Below are positions 9,712 through 41,034 of a stretch of DNA of 45,702 bases, one piece after another (the stretch's first letter is position 1; each line of letters starts with the position of its first letter). A program made the translations under genes and the position numbers. The notes below the pieces were generated by a model. That model did not search any database. It was not told the DNA's origin and was given only the letters and a program-made list of their open reading frames with translations. The stretch covers positions 1 through 45,702 of the forward strand of contig JAGBVS010000211.1 in NCBI GenBank assembly GCA_017630195.1, given 5' to 3'. Origin of the DNA: Bacteroidales bacterium (GTDB lineage Bacteria > Bacteroidota > Bacteroidia > Bacteroidales > F082).

Positions 9712-11454
9712 ATGAAAAAACTATTAACACTTTTAGTTATGATGTGCGTAGTTTCTTTTATGAAACCAGCACAAGCATGTACCAATTTCTTAATCACTCC
9801 AGGTGCTTCTGCTGATGGTTCTTCAATCATCTCATACGCAGCAGACTCACACGTACTTTATGGAGAATTATATCATTATCCAGCAATGGATTATCCAGAA
9901 GGCGCTATGAGAGAAATAGTTGACTGGGACTCAGGAAGATACGTCGGTAGAATCCCAGAAGTAGCTCATACTTACAACGTTGTTGGTAATATGAACGAAT
10001 GGCAGCTTGCTATTGCGGAAACAACATACGGCGGACTTCCAAATCTTGAAAATCCAGAAGGTTTGATAGATTACGGTAGCTTGATTTACATTACATTACA
10101 ACGTGCTAAGACAGCTCGTGAAGCTATCAAGACAATGGCAGAATTGGTTGCTAATTATGGTTATATGAGCAGCGGCGAATCATTCTCAATCGCTGACCCT
10201 AACGAAGTTTGGATTATGGAACTCATCGGCAAAGGTCAAGAAAAAGGCGCTGTTTGGGTAGCACTTCGTGTGCCAGACGGTTATGTAGCAGCTCACGCTA
10301 ACCAAGCTCGTATAACAACTTTCCCATTAGCAAATAAGCATAACAAAAATAGTATCACTTCAAAAAATCTTGATAAGCTTTTGAAGAATCCAAACATCGA
10401 CTGTGTTTATGCTGAAGACGTTATCTCATTTGCTAAAAAAAACAATTTATATGCAGGTCCTGACGGACAATTCTCATTCTCAGATGTTTATGCTCCAGTA
10501 GATTTCAGCGGTGCAAGAGCTTGCGAAATTCGTGTTTGGGCTATGTTCAATCAAATTGTTGACGGCATGGATCAATATTGGGATTATGCAACTGGCAGAA
10601 ACATCAATCGTGCTAAACCTTACGTAAGCGGTCAACCACAAACTCCAGAAAATTTCCCAACAAACAGAATGCCTCTCTGGGTTAAGCCAAATGAAAAAGT
10701 AAGCGTTTTAGATGTTATGTCATTTATGCGTGACCACCTCGAAGGCACAGAGCTTGATATGACTCAAGATGTTGGCGCTGGTCCATTCCACTGTCCTTAC
10801 AGATCACGTCCAATGGGCTGGGAAGTTGACGGTGTTTCATACGTTCACGAACGTGCTACAGCAACACAACAAACAGGTTTCTCATTCGTAGCACAATGTC
10901 GTCCTAACACAATCAGAGAAATCGGCGGTATCATTTGGTTCGGCGTTGACGATGCAGCAAGCACAGTATATTGTCCAATGTACACATGTATGACAGAAAT
11001 TCCTCTCTGCTATCGCGAAGGTAACGGCAGCATCATGGAATATTCTGAGACAGCAGCATTCTGGGTATTCAACCAAGTAACAAACTGGGCTTATACAAAA
11101 TATGAATATATCCACCCAGAAATAGCAGAAAAACAAGCTAACTACGAAAAAGGCTGGGTTGAAGCTGTAGCTCATACTGATGCAAAAGCTGCTGATATTT
11201 ATAATACAGCTCCTGCTGCAGCTGTTGATTTCCTCACATCATTCTCTTGTAGAGAAGCAGAAAAATTGACAGCTGACTGGAGAGAATTCTACAAATATTT
11301 ATTTGTAAAATACATGGACTTCAACATCAAGACTGCTCAGCCAACTCCAAAAAGCCACAAATATATTGCTCCAAAAGTTGAACAACCTAAATATAGCGAA
11401 GAATACTACAGAGCAATCATTGAACAAACAGGCGATAAACTTAAAGCTTATTAA
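9712..11454 (+). CDS. Secreted C69-family (dipeptidase-like) peptidase
   Basis: 580 residues. Signal peptide MKKLLTLLVMMCVVSFMKPAQA, then Cys23-Thr-Asn-Phe. In family C69 (Ntn-hydrolase fold, formerly U34) the catalytic nucleophile is an N-terminal Cys exposed by processing; here signal-peptide cleavage would itself expose it. Other C69-like landmarks are ADSHVLYGELYHYPA, the stretch around AETTYGG, GESFSIADPNEVWIMELIGKG, and VAAHANQARITTFP. Likely periplasmic or surface cleavage of short peptides. It uses many AAC, TTC and CTC codons, as do the next gene and the barrel gene, hinting at strong expression. Substrate not predictable. Confidence 0.88.
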   Translation: MKKLLTLLVMMCVVSFMKPAQACTNFLITPGASADGSSIISYAADSHVLYGELYHYPAMDYPEGAMREIVDWDSGRYVGRIPEVAHTYNVVGNMNEWQLAIAETTYGGLPNLENPEGLIDYGSLIYITLQRAKTAREAIKTMAELVANYGYMSSGESFSIADPNEVWIMELIGKGQEKGAVWVALRVPDGYVAAHANQARITTFPLANKHNKNSITSKNLDKLLKNPNIDCVYAEDVISFAKKNNLYAGPDGQFSFSDVYAPVDFSGARACEIRVWAMFNQIVDGMDQYWDYATGRNINRAKPYVSGQPQTPENFPTNRMPLWVKPNEKVSVLDVMSFMRDHLEGTELDMTQDVGAGPFHCPYRSRPMGWEVDGVSYVHERATATQQTGFSFVAQCRPNTIREIGGIIWFGVDDAASTVYCPMYTCMTEIPLCYREGNGSIMEYSETAAFWVFNQVTNWAYTKYEYIHPEIAEKQANYEKGWVEAVAHTDAKAADIYNTAPAAAVDFLTSFSCREAEKLTADWREFYKYLFVKYMDFNIKTAQPTPKSHKYIAPKVEQPKYSEEYYRAIIEQTGDKLKAY

Positions 11455-11480
11455 AGACTACAAGACAATAAGACAACAAG
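11455..11480 (+). repeat. Short tandem AAGACNA-type repeat behind the C69 gene
   Basis: Starting right after the stop codon, three or four AAGAC units (AAGACTACAAGACAATAAG, then ACAACAAG) follow each other. The same pattern, in the opposite orientation, lies inside polA at 32971-33003 (about 24 of 29 positions equal). No coding role here. Confidence 0.55.
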
Positions 11481-25006: not shown

Positions 25007-26371
25007 ATGGCTAAGACTAAAACGGTATTTTTTTGTAAGAATTGTGGCAATGAATCGCCAAAATGGATAGGTCATTGTCCGGGTTGTGGTGCATGGAATA
25101 GCTATGTGGAAGAGAGTGTTGTGGTAGGAAAAGACAGTAAGTCGGTGAAGGGTTCTATATTGCCTGCGACCAAGTCGAAGCCTACTCGTGTCGCGGAAAT
25201 AAGCAGCGTAAAAGAGGCTCGCATCGACCTCTGTTATGAAGAACTTAATCGTGTTTTAGGTGGCGGCCTTGTCTTAGGTTCTCTCATCTTACTCGGAGGC
25301 GAGCCTGGTATAGGAAAATCAACACTCTTGTTGCAAGTGGCTCTTAATGTTAATGATAAAAAAGTGCTTTATGTCTCTGGCGAAGAGAGCTCCCAGCAAA
25401 TTAAAATGCGTGCCGAGAGAATAGGAGTAAAAAATGAAAACTGCTTTATATTGACGGAGACTAATACTGCTGAGATAATAAAACATTTCGAGGAGACAAA
25501 ACCTGACATCGTCATCATCGACTCAATACAGACTTTGGAGTCGCCGGCAATTGATGCAACAGCCGGAAGCATAAGCCAGATTCGTGAGACAGCTGCCGAG
25601 ATGAATAAGGTCGCCAAGGCTCATCACGTTCCTATTTTCCTCATCGGTCATATCACCAAAGATGGAACTATCGCCGGTCCGAAAATCCTCGAACATATTG
25701 TCGATACCGTTATTCAATTTGAAGGCGACCGTCATTATGGCTTCAGGATTTTACGTACAGTGAAAAATCGTTTCGGCTCATCTTCAGAACTTGGAATTTT
25801 CGAGATGAACGCCACAGGTTTGCGTGAAGTCAGCAATCCAAGTGAAATCTTGCTTTCACAAAGAGAAGAGAATGTGAGCGGTATTGCTGTAGCAGCTATG
25901 GTAGAAGGTCTGCGTCCTATGATGATTGAGACTCAGGCTCTTGTCAGCACCGCAGCATACGGAACACCTCAACGCAGCTGTACCGGCTTCGATACCCGTC
26001 GTCTTAATATGTTGCTCGCTGTTCTGGAGAAAAGGGCTGGTTTCAGATTGTCGGCAAAAGACGTTTTCCTTAACATAGCCGGAGGCTTGCGCGTTGATGA
26101 TCCTGCTATCGACCTTGCTGTTATGGCTGCTATTTTATCGTCAAACGAAGACATCGCTATAAGTAATAGATATGCTTTTGCAGCAGAAGTAGGACTTTCT
26201 GGCGAGGTGCGCTCGGTCAACAGAATAGAAGCCAGAATCGCTGAAGCCGACAAACTCGGAATGGAAAAGATTTTCGTCTCTAAATACAACTGCCGTGGCC
26301 TTGATACATCGAAATACAATGTGGAAGTAGTGCCGCTCGCTACGATAGGGGAGTTGATAAAGAGTTTATGA
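25007..26371 (+). CDS. radA: DNA repair protein RadA
   Basis: 454 residues, normal for RadA, a RecA-like ATPase that drives branch migration in recombination. The N-terminal zinc finger has Cys10, Cys13, Cys24 and Cys27 (CKNCGNESPKWIGHCPGCG). Walker A is GGEPGIGKST (97-106); the RadA-specific KNRFG is at 253-257; the C-terminal Lon-protease-like domain contains NIAGGLRVDDPAIDLAVMAA. Cytoplasmic. The last codons (KSL stop) lie inside the left 8-bp repeat array of the S23 cassette, so the gene's tail and stop may have been reshaped by that insertion. Confidence 0.96.
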   Translation: MAKTKTVFFCKNCGNESPKWIGHCPGCGAWNSYVEESVVVGKDSKSVKGSILPATKSKPTRVAEISSVKEARIDLCYEELNRVLGGGLVLGSLILLGGEPGIGKSTLLLQVALNVNDKKVLYVSGEESSQQIKMRAERIGVKNENCFILTETNTAEIIKHFEETKPDIVIIDSIQTLESPAIDATAGSISQIRETAAEMNKVAKAHHVPIFLIGHITKDGTIAGPKILEHIVDTVIQFEGDRHYGFRILRTVKNRFGSSSELGIFEMNATGLREVSNPSEILLSQREENVSGIAVAAMVEGLRPMMIETQALVSTAAYGTPQRSCTGFDTRRLNMLLAVLEKRAGFRLSAKDVFLNIAGGLRVDDPAIDLAVMAAILSSNEDIAISNRYAFAAEVGLSGEVRSVNRIEARIAEADKLGMEKIFVSKYNCRGLDTSKYNVEVVPLATIGELIKSL

Positions 26372-26396
26372 GTCTATGAGTCTATGAGTTTATGGG
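26365..26396 (+). repeat. Left array of the 8-bp repeat TCTATGAG
   Basis: Four contiguous units: TTTATGAG, TCTATGAG, TCTATGAG, TTTATGGG. The first contains the stop codon of radA. Confidence 0.8.
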
Positions 26397-26449
26397 TTTT
26401 GGGGTGGGTGAGAATCAAAGATAATTGTTTAACCTTAAACTTAAAATTT

Positions 26450-26800
26450 ATGGAAAGAAGCATAGAAAATTTGTTTATATGGAAAGAATCTAGGGTTGTT
26501 GTAAATGACATTTACTCAATGATGAATAATTGCAAGGATTTTTGTTTTAAAGATCAGATTCAAAGAGCGGCAATTAGTATAATGAATAATATTGCAGAGG
26601 GTGCTGAATCAGGAACTGATGCTAAATTTGTTTCGTTTTTAAAAATAGCAAGAGGTAGTTGTTCAGAAGTAAGATCAATGTTGTATCTCTGTGAAGATTT
26701 TAATTATTGTAATGAAGAAGAAAGAGTCATTATCCAGAATCGAATAAAAACAATTACAGTAGGAGCTTTTAAACTAATAAAAAAATTGAATAACAAATAA
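26450..26800 (+). CDS. Four-helix-bundle (S23 / 23S intervening-sequence) protein
   Basis: 116 residues from ATG 26450 (MERSIENLFIWKESRVVVND). An upstream ATG at 26384 lies in the repeat array and would add 22 residues unlike the family, so I reject it. Family landmarks: LFIWKESRVVVNDIY near the start, QIQRAAISIMNNIAEGAESG in the middle (family: QIRRAAVSIPSNIAEG), and FLKIARGSCSEVRSMLYLCED (family: FL.IA.GSA.EL...L..A.D). It is predicted to be an all-helical small protein that forms ring oligomers; its role is unknown, though it was first known from 23S rRNA intervening sequences. It lies between inverted repeat arrays. Confidence 0.88.
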   Translation: MERSIENLFIWKESRVVVNDIYSMMNNCKDFCFKDQIQRAAISIMNNIAEGAESGTDAKFVSFLKIARGSCSEVRSMLYLCEDFNYCNEEERVIIQNRIKTITVGAFKLIKKLNNK

Positions 26801-26821
26801 TTCGAAACTTATTTTAACCAT

Positions 26822-26864
26822 CCCCCCCATAACTTATAGACTTATAGACTCATAGACTTATAGC
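26822..26864 (-). repeat. Right, inverted array of the 8-bp repeat with C run
   Basis: On the plus strand: seven C, AT, AA, then CTTATAGA, CTTATAGA, CTCATAGA, CTTATAGC. These are the reverse complement of the left array units, with a few changes. The stop codon and last codons (YKSMSL) of the convergent gene are inside it. Confidence 0.8.
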
Positions 26865-27753
26865 CTCTATAACTCCAAACAACAAGGAGCGACATCGCCC
26901 ATCGTGATAACAGCATCCAGAGATAGGCTCCACCGGCAGCTGAGAACAAAAGCAAATCTTCCAAATTGCTGTGCGATATTCCAATGTGACGATTCAAGAG
27001 GTCGTTTTCCTCTTTAGTGGTTTCCCCTTTCTCTGCCTCCTCTATCATGATGCCTGCTCCGTAGGCTAATCCTAATGTGTTGGAAACCAACCATAAGAAC
27101 GCTGTCTTTGGTGATAAGCCGAAAAATATCATTACAGGCTTTAAAAATCTTGAAATGTATTGTATAATGCCAAATTCAGTTAAAATCTTTTGTAATAATG
27201 TCAGAAGATAAACTAATATTGCCATCGTGACTATATTTTTTGTAGTCCTCAGAGCCCATTGTTTTAACATCACTACAAAAGTCAGCTTTTCCTGAATAGA
27301 ATTTCCCGCCATCGAAGTCTCAAAACTTCCTGGCATTATTTTATTTAAAATCCAAGCTAAAATAAAGGCTGATAATGTTCTTGTCAAAACTATGCTTAAA
27401 ACGGATGAACCTGTCTTGTGTTGAACTGCTGTCTCCACAATCATATTGTGCGAGCAAAGAACCATGACTGATAAAATTGTTGCAGCTCTGGTGCTTAAAT
27501 CTAAGGTCGTCATCACGGCGATGGCAGAATAGCAATTTACGAAATAGCCCGAAACATAAGCAAGAGCCGCCTCACCGGGCAGTCCGAAGTGTGAAAATAA
27601 AGGAGTGAGCCAATATGAAATCCATTCTATTATGCCAAAATACTGAAGCAGCAATATGACAAAAGATAACAAAGCCATTATCTTTGTCAGCCACCAGATA
27701 GTCTTGAATGCACTTGGCCCTGCAAGTTTTATGCAATTGACAAAACGTGACAC
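26842..27753 (-). CDS. Nucleoside-recognition (Gate) domain membrane protein
   Basis: 303 residues with about eight hydrophobic segments. Two similar halves: the first with the Gly-rich segment HFGLPGEAALAYVSGYF, the second with FFGLSPKTAFLWLVSNTLG, which is the pattern of nucleoside-recognition/Gate domain proteins (also spore-maturation SpmA/SpmB in Firmicutes). Inner membrane; transport role inferred only. The final six residues (YKSMSL) are encoded by the 8-bp repeat array, so the native C-terminus may have been replaced. It follows the barrel gene by 16 nt and is probably co-transcribed with it. Confidence 0.75.
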   Translation of the reverse strand: MSRFVNCIKLAGPSAFKTIWWLTKIMALLSFVILLLQYFGIIEWISYWLTPLFSHFGLPGEAALAYVSGYFVNCYSAIAVMTTLDLSTRAATILSVMVLCSHNMIVETAVQHKTGSSVLSIVLTRTLSAFILAWILNKIMPGSFETSMAGNSIQEKLTFVVMLKQWALRTTKNIVTMAILVYLLTLLQKILTEFGIIQYISRFLKPVMIFFGLSPKTAFLWLVSNTLGLAYGAGIMIEEAEKGETTKEENDLLNRHIGISHSNLEDLLLFSAAGGAYLWMLLSRWAMSLLVVWSYRGYKSMSL

Positions 27754-31016: not shown

Positions 31017-33869
31017 TCAGTGCGCTTCTAACCAATTAGTTCCAGTATTGAGATTTACTTCAATAGGAACGTTGAGTGGAAGCGCATTTATCATTTTATC
31101 TTTGACGATATTACTTAAAAAGTCCAATTCTTCTTTATAGACGTCAAAAACCAATTCATCGTGAACTTGTAATATCATCTTGGATTTCATATTGTTGTCT
31201 GTCATTTCCTTATGTATATTTGCCATAGCGATTTTAATCATGTCGGCAGAAGTACCTTGTATTGGCGCATTGATGGCGTTGCGTTCTGCAAAATTACGAA
31301 CCACGCTATTGCCTGCGTTGATGTCTTTTAAGTAACGACGACGTCCGAGCATTGTCTCAACATAGCCGTGTTGTTTTGCAAAATCAACTTGTTTGTCTAT
31401 ATATTCTTGAATACCAATGTATTCTTTAAAATAATTCTTGATTATCTCTGACGCTTCGCTTCTTGAAATTCCTAAACGTTCGGCGAGACCGAATGCCGAC
31501 ATTCCATAAATAATTCCAAAGTTGACAGCTTTAGCATTACGACGCATCTCTTTTGTAACATCTTCTATAGCAATATTATACACGCGAGAAGCTGTATCGG
31601 TATGAATATCCTTGCCGCTTCTGAAAGCATCTTGCATAACGGTGTCGCCACTGAGATGAGCGATTATTCGCAACTCAATCTGAGAATAATCAGCAGCCAG
31701 CAAGATATGATTTTCATCTCTTGGAACAAAAGCTTTTCTGATTTCTTTGCCTTTGTCGGTTCTCACCGGAATGTTTTGCAAATTAGGATTGTTGGAACTT
31801 AATCGTCCTGTTGCTGTAATAGCTTGATTATAAGATGTGTGAATCAATCCGTCGTTAAGATTTACTAATGAAGGCAAAGAGTCAACATATGTAGATTTAA
31901 GTTTCGTTAAAGAACGATAATCTAAAATATTCTGAACAATAGGGTTTTCATTTACAATCTTTTGAAGAATATCTTCTCCTGTAGGATATTGTCCAGTCTT
32001 GGTTTTTTTGGCTGGCGCCTTGATATTTAGTTTCTCAAAAAGAACTTCTCCAAGTTGTTTCGGAGAACCAATATTGAATGAAGTTCCTGCAATTTCATAT
32101 ATACTATTTTCAATTTCACGAATTTCTTTAGCTTGTTCATTGCTGATTTGTTGTAGGCCTTCAATATCGATTTTAACACCGTTTGCCTCCATTTTTGCCA
32201 AAACCTTGACTAAAGGCATCTCAATTTCGTAAAATAGTTTTTCTAATTGATTTTCAATTATTAAAGGTTTAAATTTGTTATAAAACTGTATTGTTATGTC
32301 GGCATCTTCTGCTGCATATTCTTTCACTTTTTCAATAGGCACATCGCGCATGCTGATTTGACTTCTCCCCTTGCCTATCAATTCTTCGATGGCAATTGGA
32401 GTGTAGTCAAGATATACGTCAGAAAGATAATCCATGCCGTGATTCTGTTCTGGTTCAATGAGATAGTGAGCAATCATTGTGTCCCAAAGATTGTTTTTTA
32501 TCTCAATGTCGTATCTTGCGAGAATTGAAAGGTCGAATTTTATATTGTGACCGACAATAGTTTTTTCTTTGTTTGAAAAAATAGGCAAAAACTTGTTCAA
32601 CAATGATTTACATTGTTCTTTATCGGCAGGAAGCGGAATGTAATAAGCCTCGTGTGCTTTGACTGAAAATGACATTCCAACTAATGATGAAGAATAAATA
32701 TTTAATCCTGTTGTTTCTGTGTCAAAAGCAAAAATATCATTGTTATTCAATAAATTGATAAGTTTGTTTATTTTGTCTTCGTCATTTGTCAAATGATATT
32801 CATGATTTTGTGTCTGGTAGTTTTTCTTTGAGGAGAAAAGAGAAAGTGAGCCGTTACTATCATTAGAATCGCCAAAAAGATCAAGCTGACCGTTTTGATT
32901 TTGTGGTACTTTATTTTTATCATTATCAACAGCCAATTCCTCATCCCTCATTCCTAATTCCTCATTATCAACTTGCGGTCTTGTAGTCTTGTAGTCTTGT
33001 TGACTTAATTTAAATCTCGACATGAAAGTTCTGAACTCAAGTTCTTCAAACAATTCTGTAAGACATTGAAAATCTGGTTCTTTAACTTCCAGACATTTTT
33101 CATCAAAGTCAATCGGCACTTCGATATTGATAGTGGCAAGTTTTTTTGACATAAGGCCTTGTTGAGCGAAATTGATTACATTTTCACACATTTTGCCTTT
33201 CAGTTTGTCAGCGTTATTGATAAGATTTTCGACGGAATCGTATTCGGCGATAAGTTTGGATGCGGTTTTCTCTCCGATACCAGGAATGCCAGGAATGTTG
33301 TCGGAAGCGTCGCCCCAAAGTCCGAGAATATCGATTACCTGTTCAGGTCGAGCGATGCCATATTTCTCGCACACGTCATTAGGACCGAGTATTTTTGCCG
33401 GTTCACCGCCTTTAGCAGGTTTGTAAATGAATATATTGTCGCTTACAAGTTGTCCGAAATCTTTGTCAGGAGTCATCATATAGGTTGTAAAACCTTCTTT
33501 TTCAGCTTTTTTAGAAAGCGTTCCAATAATGTCGTCGGCTTCATATCCTTCGCATTCGAAGATAGGAATGTTAAATCCTTTTATGATTTCTTTGATGTAA
33601 GGGACAGAAATTTTGATGTCGGGAGGAGTCTCTTCGCGGTTTGCTTTATATGCCGAGAAGTCGTCGGTGCGTAAAGTTGGCGCTCCGAGGTCGAAGGCGA
33701 CACCTATATGAGTCGGTTTCTCGTTTCTTAGCACTTCATATAAGGTGTTAAGAAAACCCATTATAGCCGAAGTGTTAAGTCCTTTAGAATTGATTCTTGG
33801 ATTTTTGTTTAAAGCGAAATAAGCTCTATATATCAATGCGTAAGCGTCAAGTAAGAATAATTTTTTCAT
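31017..33869 (-). CDS. polA: DNA polymerase I
   Basis: 950 residues from ATG 33869 (MKKLFLLDAYALIYRAYFAL); another ATG is adjacent at 33872 and the frame reaches 33905. The N-terminal 5' nuclease has FECEGYEADDIIGTL and LWGDASDNIPGIPGIGEKTA. The 3'-5' exonuclease domain appears active, with IFAFDTETTGL (motif Exo I Asp and Glu) and VGHNIKFDLSIL. The polymerase motifs are DYSQIELRIIAHLSGD (A), the O-helix RRNAKAVNFGIIYG (B) and QVHDELVFDV (C). Between the nuclease and exonuclease domains lies a linker, DYKTTRPQVDNEELGMRDEE followed by LAVDND, encoded by what looks like intergenic-type repeat DNA. It converges on topA with a 15-nt gap. Confidence 0.96.
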   Translation of the reverse strand: MKKLFLLDAYALIYRAYFALNKNPRINSKGLNTSAIMGFLNTLYEVLRNEKPTHIGVAFDLGAPTLRTDDFSAYKANREETPPDIKISVPYIKEIIKGFNIPIFECEGYEADDIIGTLSKKAEKEGFTTYMMTPDKDFGQLVSDNIFIYKPAKGGEPAKILGPNDVCEKYGIARPEQVIDILGLWGDASDNIPGIPGIGEKTASKLIAEYDSVENLINNADKLKGKMCENVINFAQQGLMSKKLATINIEVPIDFDEKCLEVKEPDFQCLTELFEELEFRTFMSRFKLSQQDYKTTRPQVDNEELGMRDEELAVDNDKNKVPQNQNGQLDLFGDSNDSNGSLSLFSSKKNYQTQNHEYHLTNDEDKINKLINLLNNNDIFAFDTETTGLNIYSSSLVGMSFSVKAHEAYYIPLPADKEQCKSLLNKFLPIFSNKEKTIVGHNIKFDLSILARYDIEIKNNLWDTMIAHYLIEPEQNHGMDYLSDVYLDYTPIAIEELIGKGRSQISMRDVPIEKVKEYAAEDADITIQFYNKFKPLIIENQLEKLFYEIEMPLVKVLAKMEANGVKIDIEGLQQISNEQAKEIREIENSIYEIAGTSFNIGSPKQLGEVLFEKLNIKAPAKKTKTGQYPTGEDILQKIVNENPIVQNILDYRSLTKLKSTYVDSLPSLVNLNDGLIHTSYNQAITATGRLSSNNPNLQNIPVRTDKGKEIRKAFVPRDENHILLAADYSQIELRIIAHLSGDTVMQDAFRSGKDIHTDTASRVYNIAIEDVTKEMRRNAKAVNFGIIYGMSAFGLAERLGISRSEASEIIKNYFKEYIGIQEYIDKQVDFAKQHGYVETMLGRRRYLKDINAGNSVVRNFAERNAINAPIQGTSADMIKIAMANIHKEMTDNNMKSKMILQVHDELVFDVYKEELDFLSNIVKDKMINALPLNVPIEVNLNTGTNWLEAH
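32923..33003 (-). repeat. Repeat-derived insertion in the polA linker
   Basis: On the coding strand, three AAGAC-type units (CAAGACTACAAGACTACAAG, then ACCGCAAG; 33003-32971) are followed by GAGGAATTAGGAATGAGGGA and TGAGGAATTGG. The first part matches the non-coding repeat at 11455-11480. It stays in frame and encodes a charged, probably unstructured stretch. Confidence 0.5.
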
Positions 33870-40989: not shown

Positions 40990-41034
40990 AACTTTAGCCT
41001 TTTGTCTTTAGTCTTTAGTCTTTTCTTATCTTTG
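40990..41034 (+). promoter_or_regulatory. CTTTAGTC repeat with promoter for meaB
   Basis: Tandem CTTTAGTC units lead into TATCTTTG at 41027-41034; TTTG at 41001-41004 is a possible -33 element (22-nt spacer). The meaB ATG lies only 7 nt after the -7 box. The cassette resembles that at 11540-11585. Confidence 0.65.

Follow-up and report, generated by a model that had tools for sequence, protein, structure and literature searches.

Why should a gene of the S23 family, which takes its name from the intervening sequences (IVSs) of 23S rRNA, stand between two protein genes and be enclosed by inverted arrays of an 8-bp word? The question is posed by a 45,702-nucleotide stretch from a Bacteroidales bacterium (the window; contig JAGBVS010000211.1 of assembly GCA_017630195.1), in which such a cassette separates a radA-like gene from a gene of the Gate family. 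On balance we favour the reading that the window cassette belongs to a widespread class of S23 hairpin cassettes between genes, IVS-like and mobile. We found matched arrays around S23 genes, variable occupancy of sites, one flip, one swap, and purifying selection on the gene; across three junctions, what one site holds varies from a cassette or an S23-free tight array hairpin to an S23 in reverse orientation, another S23 with other arms, or no insert at all.

The S23 gene of the window (26450..26800, plus strand, 116 amino acids) lies in the loop of the longest inverted repeat of its 1.6-kb region, whose 53-nt arms (26358-26410 and 26819-26871) are 79% complementary and enclose 408 nt. Both arrays are contained in this repeat. 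The left arm (26362..26399, plus strand) is a tandem array of GAGTYTAT (GAGTTTAT-type) with about 4.8 units of 8 bp and a 90% match between copies (Tandem Repeats Finder); the right arm (26832..26867, minus strand) is the inverted tandem array ACTTATAG/ACTCATAG, with 4.0 to 4.5 units according to Tandem Repeats Finder, which called ACTTATAG x4.0 at 26832-26863, and inverted-repeat pairing. A linker (26400..26449, plus strand), the first 11 bases of which belong to the inverted repeat, leads from the left arm to the S23 start codon, and an inner C-rich part completes the right side of the stem (26819..26831, plus strand; inverted-repeat pairing). The protein matches PF05635 at 101.6 bits (cut-off 33.8), TIGR02436 at 96.2 (cut-off 24) and PDB 2gsc with an E-value of 4e-10; 2rld is also related. 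In our judgement its coding start is most plausibly 26450, the longer frame from 26384 starting within the array.

Within the 45.7 kb, a two-unit 16-mer with up to 3 mismatches found 6 matches, all in the two arms, compared with 0.34 expected, and none of 100 shuffles gave 6. The predicted RNA fold of 26355-26875 closes the long terminal stem (z = -4.9), and none of 100 shuffles was equally stable. A chance or low-complexity origin was rejected on the shuffles and by the mismatched-flank and array-density controls. A sequence-only reading of this DNA had placed an S23 gene between inverted 8-bp arrays at 26365-26864 and likened it to an IVS outside rRNA; the array calls, the 53-nt inverted repeat and the PF05635 match bear out the interval, its content, and the anatomy of a long stem between protein genes with S23 in its loop. 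On the left, the array takes in the stop codon of the radA-like gene (25007..26371, plus strand), named by that reading, which has Pfam matches to AAA_25, KaiC ATPase, ChlI and Zn-ribbon, a domain order that we take to fit the name; on the right, the arm overlaps the 3' end of a convergent gene of the Gate (nucleoside recognition) family (26842..27753, minus strand; PF07670, 61.7 bits). An Rfam search of the window gave one tRNA only and no rRNA match, and a PADLOC search gave no match.

The arrangement recurs around S23 genes in general. An S23 match was found in 23 of 40 relatives' genomes, and the S23/IVP family in 232 of 296 sampled Bacteroidota genomes, often in several copies per genome. 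Our locus sample, which is not random, combined own-genus and same-order loci, the best 80 of 215 named-genome loci nearest the query, and 30 of the best-scoring places of a phylum search; 172 S23 matches in 161 of 163 loci left 152 genes after 20 had been dropped (flank shorter than 250 nt, duplicates or N). Each gene was given a score for how well its two flanks, 250 nt or longer, complement each other, and the scores were set against a baseline of 3800 mismatched flank pairs. The median score was 38 at S23 genes, compared with 19 for mismatched pairs and 19 for shuffled flanks, and 119 of the 152 genes reached the 95th percentile of mismatched pairs and 90 the 99th (one gene of locus L195 was counted in two frames; strictly, 118 and 89 of 151). 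Control open reading frames (ORFs) of 100-400 amino acids reached the 99th percentile in 3 of 102 cases at the same loci and in 7 of 566 in sampled genomes (Fisher 8e-64). Clustered at 65% protein identity, the S23 set gave 89 clusters, 65 of which averaged no less than the 95th percentile. Inverted flank similarity exceeded direct similarity in 119 genes, fell below it in 28 and tied in 5.

Outside Bacteroidota the 99% level was reached in Verrucomicrobiota (3/5), Fidelibacterota (2/3), Electryoneota (2/3, one gene twice), Roizmaniibacteriota (2/2), Wolfeibacteriota (1/2), an unplaced Patescibacteria genome (1/2), and Thermodesulfobacteriota (Geobacter), Omnitrophota, Calditrichota and Ignavibacteriota (1/1 each), as well as at three more loci from unplaced genomes; single loci of Gemmatimonadota, Uhriibacteriota and Yonathiibacteriota reached the 95% level only, and one of Kiritimatiellota neither. 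The Electryoneota locus L195 holds two S23 genes with array flanks, scoring 33 and 62, the second being the one present in two reading frames.

What makes the flanks complementary is a short tandem word. Flanks were periodic beyond 99% of shuffles upstream of 127, downstream of 110 and on both sides of 99 of the 152 genes, and in 87 of those 99 the period, mostly 7, 8 or 9 nt, was equal on the two sides. The word differs from locus to locus, yet is common to both arms of one locus. The stem's 5' strand is predominantly AGT-type: of 90 loci, 66 have a positive and 16 a negative GC skew, and AGT-type prevails over ACT-type in 62 vs 11. To our knowledge, an inverted repeat of which both arms change word together is unusual for a mobile element; the joint change points to a copying process between the arms, and the matching turnover would call for a copying or gene-conversion step between them. 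Differences between arms were G-U compatible on the S23 strand 111 times vs 109, with 30 vs 31 of 90 loci leaning each way, giving no evidence of selection on an RNA stem. This result shows no sign that transcript pairing keeps the arms alike; DNA-level copying between them is the simpler account, and the arms may be rewritten from each other by copying or gene conversion, most simply via hairpin or cruciform DNA.

Variation of the word is already visible within the window's genome (84% complete), which has five S23 genes, of which only the window copy has the window word. One further copy (contig C192) has inverted ACTACAAG arrays on both sides, one (C159) is bounded by arrays of a GAGGGA-type 9-mer and one (C210) by arrays of a 6-mer; at the last (C157) no arrays were seen, and the flank score is 17. 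The window word is itself frequent, a 19-mer pattern, 3 mismatches allowed, giving 42+54 matches genome-wide vs 4+4 for the reversed control, and some of its arrays form close inverted pairs without S23. The earlier suggestion that the cassette spreads through common 8-bp units, with other copies flanked by the same word, did not survive: none of the four other S23 copies in this genome carries the window's word, and words differ both among the S23 copies of one genome and between species at one site. A cassette spread by one 8-bp word is ruled out, since the words differ between loci. At the C210 copy (L040, 1210-1290), a ATTCCCGA array stands just before an apparent tRNA gene, followed by the 6-mer arrays around the S23 gene.

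Variation is also visible between genomes at fixed junctions. We listed 14 junctions downstream of gltX, with folB next in six and other sequence in eight. Between gltX and folB, both Pfam-confirmed in the close relative G009, that genome has a cassette with S23 (L102; flank score 28, between the 95% and 99% thresholds). In the window's genome an S23-free tight hairpin of 8-bp arrays lies there between conserved flanks (gltX end 96% identical; fold z = -5.8); the tight array hairpin of G017 uses another word, G011 and G005 carry palindromes of other kinds, and the junction is bare in G015. Occupied and unoccupied alleles of one site, as expected of a mobile element, are found here between species, and the sequence-only reading is supported in that the cassette is present in some relatives and absent from others, as S23, array hairpin only, or nothing.

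The radA-Gate junction of G009 (radA 96% identical) has S23 at the same place, turned round and with arms built on another word. In four further named genomes (L119, L121, L122 and L128), put at the radA junction by eye from flank sequences, S23 is accompanied by other words, including GAGTCAAT, GAGTCACC and GAGTTGCT types. G017 and G011 have tight array hairpins after radA with a different gene next, and most of the remaining radA junctions among those listed have no hairpin. At a third site, which follows an ArsP_2-like gene, the window's genome has S23 with ACTACAAG arms and G009 a remotely related S23, 31% identical to the window protein, with GGAATTA arms; this locus (L104) scored 18 automatically, the estimated start having cut off the array, and 36 with the arms set by hand. 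For L071, where S23 is reversed, flanks were taken in S23 orientation, which spoils that locus in the cross-site score matrix. Flip, swap and differing occupancy at three junctions show that a site can persist through changes of its gene, arms and orientation. Relatives' cassettes have self-matching arms and other copies of the family have flanking repeats, so that what could have undone the idea of an IVS-like cassette did not appear. The C80 site of G009, considered as a clean empty site against C56 of the window's genome, was rejected, the alignment holding on the downstream side only. Like sites after stop codons are also taken by a different palindromic repeat between genes, GGTTCCTC...GGAATGAC and its inverse (L202 and L291 of G011, L203 of G015).

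Arrays also occur by themselves. We surveyed 1.38 Mb from four genomes, the stretches of the window's genome coming largely, and those of G009 partly, from contigs known to hold arrays, and those of G015 and G023 from contigs 1-20. Arrays numbered 5.7-28.9 per 100 kb in the four genomes vs 0 in shuffles, and most lay outside gene models (50/62 in the window's genome, 17/18 in G015, 65/91 in G009 and 47/63 in G023). An inverted partner within 1.2 kb was present for 5/62, 0/18, 19/91 and 22/63 arrays, respectively, compared with 2, 0, 2 and 2 at random places. The 29 inverted pairs had loops of less than 100 nt in 18 cases, 100-299 nt in 3, 300-900 nt in none and at least 900 nt in 8, so that these samples, which are small, showed no other cargo gene in a loop of 300-900 nt. 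At the S23 loci 75 of 77 array pairs with such loops hold S23; as these loci were picked for S23, the informative part is that the samples show no other cargo.

Stray arrays tend to look like the S23 flanks of their own or the nearest genome. With 330 nt on each side of S23 taken as flanks, 34 of the 62 arrays of the window's genome matched S23 flanks of that same genome, 24 those of G009, 8 those of G011, 1 those of G035, 0 those of G021 and 2 those of G022. Of the 91 arrays of G009, 38 matched its own flanks, 43 those of the window's genome, 11 those of G011 and 1 each those of G035, G021 and G022. Some arrays in these flanks may lie outside the arms, as is probable for the 12 matches to L003, and the number of flanks differs among genomes. 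At most 7 of 18 arrays of G015 and 9 of 63 of G023, genomes with no S23 locus in the set, matched the S23 flanks of any single genome. Array-only hairpins could be non-autonomous or emptied relatives of the cassettes. Further arrays lie at three places in the window: ATTCCTC x4.4 adjoining GTCTTGTA x2.9 at 32936-33000; CTTTAGT x4.6 at 40992-41023, about 85 bp past the tRNA match and of the word family of the left arm of the G009 gltX-folB cassette; and AAGACAAC x3.4 at 11454-11480, resembling the ACTACAAG/GTCAACAA family of the window's genome. At L382 (12728-13059) of G023, a called ORF contains two composite GAACGGA/TCCGTTT hairpin arrays, separated by about 170 bp and matching each other with a score of 94.

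These hairpins admit another account, which we think possible but rather unlikely: array hairpins would arise and turn over independently, through slippage or gene conversion and perhaps as terminators, and S23 elements would insert into their loops, much as rRNA IVSs are placed at the tips of helices, the arms being target rather than element. Tight array hairpins at orthologous junctions fit it, as do the 18 tight hairpins in 1.38 Mb, per genome more than the five S23 genes of the window's genome, the commonness of arrays also where S23 was not seen, the presence of two unrelated S23 genes at one site, and the description of rRNA IVSs as having replaced small tetraloops (PMC4990558). The two unrelated S23 genes at the ArsP_2-like site, however, differ in arms too, and the S23 hairpin and the tight hairpin at gltX-folB differ in word, both of which later arm turnover could explain. 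Because gene and arms changed together at the ArsP_2-like site, we lean toward arms that belong to the element.

The cassettes keep close to the ends of genes. Of the 106 loci scoring at least 29, 103 were flanked by gene models (longest-ORF models throughout) to the left and right, and at 96 neither lay more than 600 nt away. At 82 of these 96 the gene ahead points into the cassette, compared with 147 of 208 control ORFs, and a median of 1 nt separates its stop codon from the left arm. On the other side, the median distance from the right arm is 10 nt where a start codon comes next (74 loci) and -2 nt where a convergent stop does (27 loci); the median element measures 499 nt from arm to arm. 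A single pattern for the 23S core was absent from the fetched DNA of 147 S23 loci. That hairpins abut stop codons and convergent stops and have strong predicted folds would also suit arrays that are bidirectional transcription terminators or insulators, with S23 an ordinary gene between two of them. We consider this improbable: matched inverted arrays are rare around ordinary genes (the 7 of 566 above), and terminators have no need for one word on both sides of a gene.

A cassette measures about 0.5 kb: it opens with a left arm at the preceding stop codon, continues with the S23 gene and closes with a right arm that repeats the left in inverted form. On the reading that we favour it would be mobile, would work like an rRNA intervening sequence and would be tolerated owing to its position at transcript ends. 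In six pairs, dN/dS of S23 was 0.07, 0.02, 0.26, 0.07, 0.07 and 0.09, with dS high in several, ratios that indicate purifying selection on the S23 protein. This four-helix-bundle protein, related to Avd, might act in trans on the stems of its own and related elements.

Several observations weigh against this reading. Occupancy was compared between related species rather than strains. The 99th-percentile score was reached in direct orientation by 29 of 152 S23 genes; 33 of 152, including the C157 copy of the window's genome, fell under the 95% level; the phylum-wide draw was weaker (19 of 30 at the 95% and 9 of 30 at the 99% level); and, measured against mismatched pairs of the own genus, 30 of 37 genes reached the 95th percentile (28) and only 2 of 37 the 99th (56), because some loci have words in common, so that mismatched arms sometimes match. 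S23-free arrays far outnumber cassettes and mostly lack an inverted partner, and they are present in G015 and G023, two genomes without a match to the window S23, so that arrays need not depend on S23. At a stricter level, both flanks were periodic for 72 of 152 S23 genes vs 32 of 566 control ORFs; arrays alone are therefore common in these genomes and unspecific, and the mark of S23 is the matched inverted pair. Period agreement is 92% for S23 pairs of at least 65% identity, compared with 41% at 50-65%, equal to the 41% baseline. No cassette-linked transposase, reverse transcriptase or recombinase was found, and no target-site duplication or linked recombinase was recognised in the elements looked at, among which no systematic search was made. 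The window's genome, at 84% completeness, gave 0 RVT_1 matches, so that neither a diversity-generating retroelement (DGR) nor a reverse transcriptase as mobiliser receives support there; its sole Y1 transposase has flanks unrelated to the cassette arms, unlike a REPIN with its RAYT, and the Y1 transposase as mobiliser is likewise unsupported.

The behaviour of the period bears on whether S23 reads the word. On the S23 tree there are 19 period changes, compared with 41.7 when shuffled, and a gene agrees in period with its nearest S23 relative under 65% identity in 76 of 106 cases vs 42.9 shuffled. Strict recognition of the word by S23 was rejected, since agreement in pairs of 50-65% identity is no better than random, and we read the agreement as co-inheritance. 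Arrays acting as operators, tandem sites for S23 or another regulator placed on both sides for looping autoregulation, have a precedent in paired octamers of Geobacter metallireducens labelled as regulator sites (PMC2700814, as annotated there). Such operators are very improbable here, given that the word varies between close relatives and between the S23 copies of one genome and that the period does not track S23 under 65% identity.

Returning to the cassette reading, we conclude that IVS-like hairpin cassettes outside rRNA are probably mobile, and that the cassette may be a little-known kind of mobile element. For the IVS-like idea put forward from the sequence, the anatomy is well supported and the behaviour partly so. 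The cassettes extend the known IVS/S23 kind, and there is a real chance that they form a class of their own. A bolder version, which we entertain tentatively and think doubtful, makes S23 cassettes the autonomous members of an unrecognised class of hairpin elements with tandem arrays of an arbitrary 7-9 bp word as inverted ends and arms rewritten in concert; they would then be the source of the many stray intergenic arrays in Bacteroidota and further phyla, and rRNA IVSs would be a special case that landed in rRNA. S23/IVP genes are common and annotated, for example, as 'four helix bundle protein', and a shared anatomy assigns the family a role that can be put to the test; the cassettes also link two unexplained things, S23 inserts in rRNA and short-word tandem arrays in intergenic DNA. 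Searches of the open-licence PubMed Central literature, judged by titles and abstract beginnings, turned up no paper that ties S23 genes to flanking short-word arrays.

Among known systems, tandem 7-8 bp words in intergenic DNA are shared with the TAACTGA arrays described from Beggiatoaceae (PMC4679880) and with the Geobacter metallireducens octamers, which are described as paired, on opposite strands and at variable distance, the annotators' label being global regulator binding sites (PMC2700814); the terms 's23' and 'four helix' are absent from the main texts of both papers. PF05635 is related to Avd, and said to be homologous, in the part of PMC10053308 concerned with it. A DGR with Avd differs from the cassettes in its reverse transcriptase, none of which turned up in the window's genome, where template and variable repeats were not searched for. 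Repetitive extragenic palindromic (REP) and REPIN elements are small intergenic inverted pairs, many of them without a gene. The cassettes and their array-only forms may be likened to REP/REPIN elements with RAYT in being small, intergenic, inverted and often gene-less, and differ in that the cassette gene is S23, not a Y1 transposase, and the arms are tandem word arrays. The remaining comparison is with the rRNA IVS, which in Coxiella is described as a selfish element excised by RNase III, the solved S23p being a homopentamer (PMC4990558). An rRNA IVS is inserted in a 16S or 23S rRNA gene, unlike the window cassette between its radA-like and Gate genes; the cassettes stand between protein genes at stop codons, have tandem 7-9 bp word arrays as arms, and occur in array-only forms and often in several copies per genome. 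Like the 23S rRNA IVSs of Coxiella and Leptospira, as PMC4990558 presents them, they place an S23-family ORF in the loop of a stem of complementary ends, about 0.4-0.5 kb in all, and the window cassette has such complementary ends and a long stem; and, like those IVSs, they are sporadic in occupancy and occupy a location that tolerates interruption.

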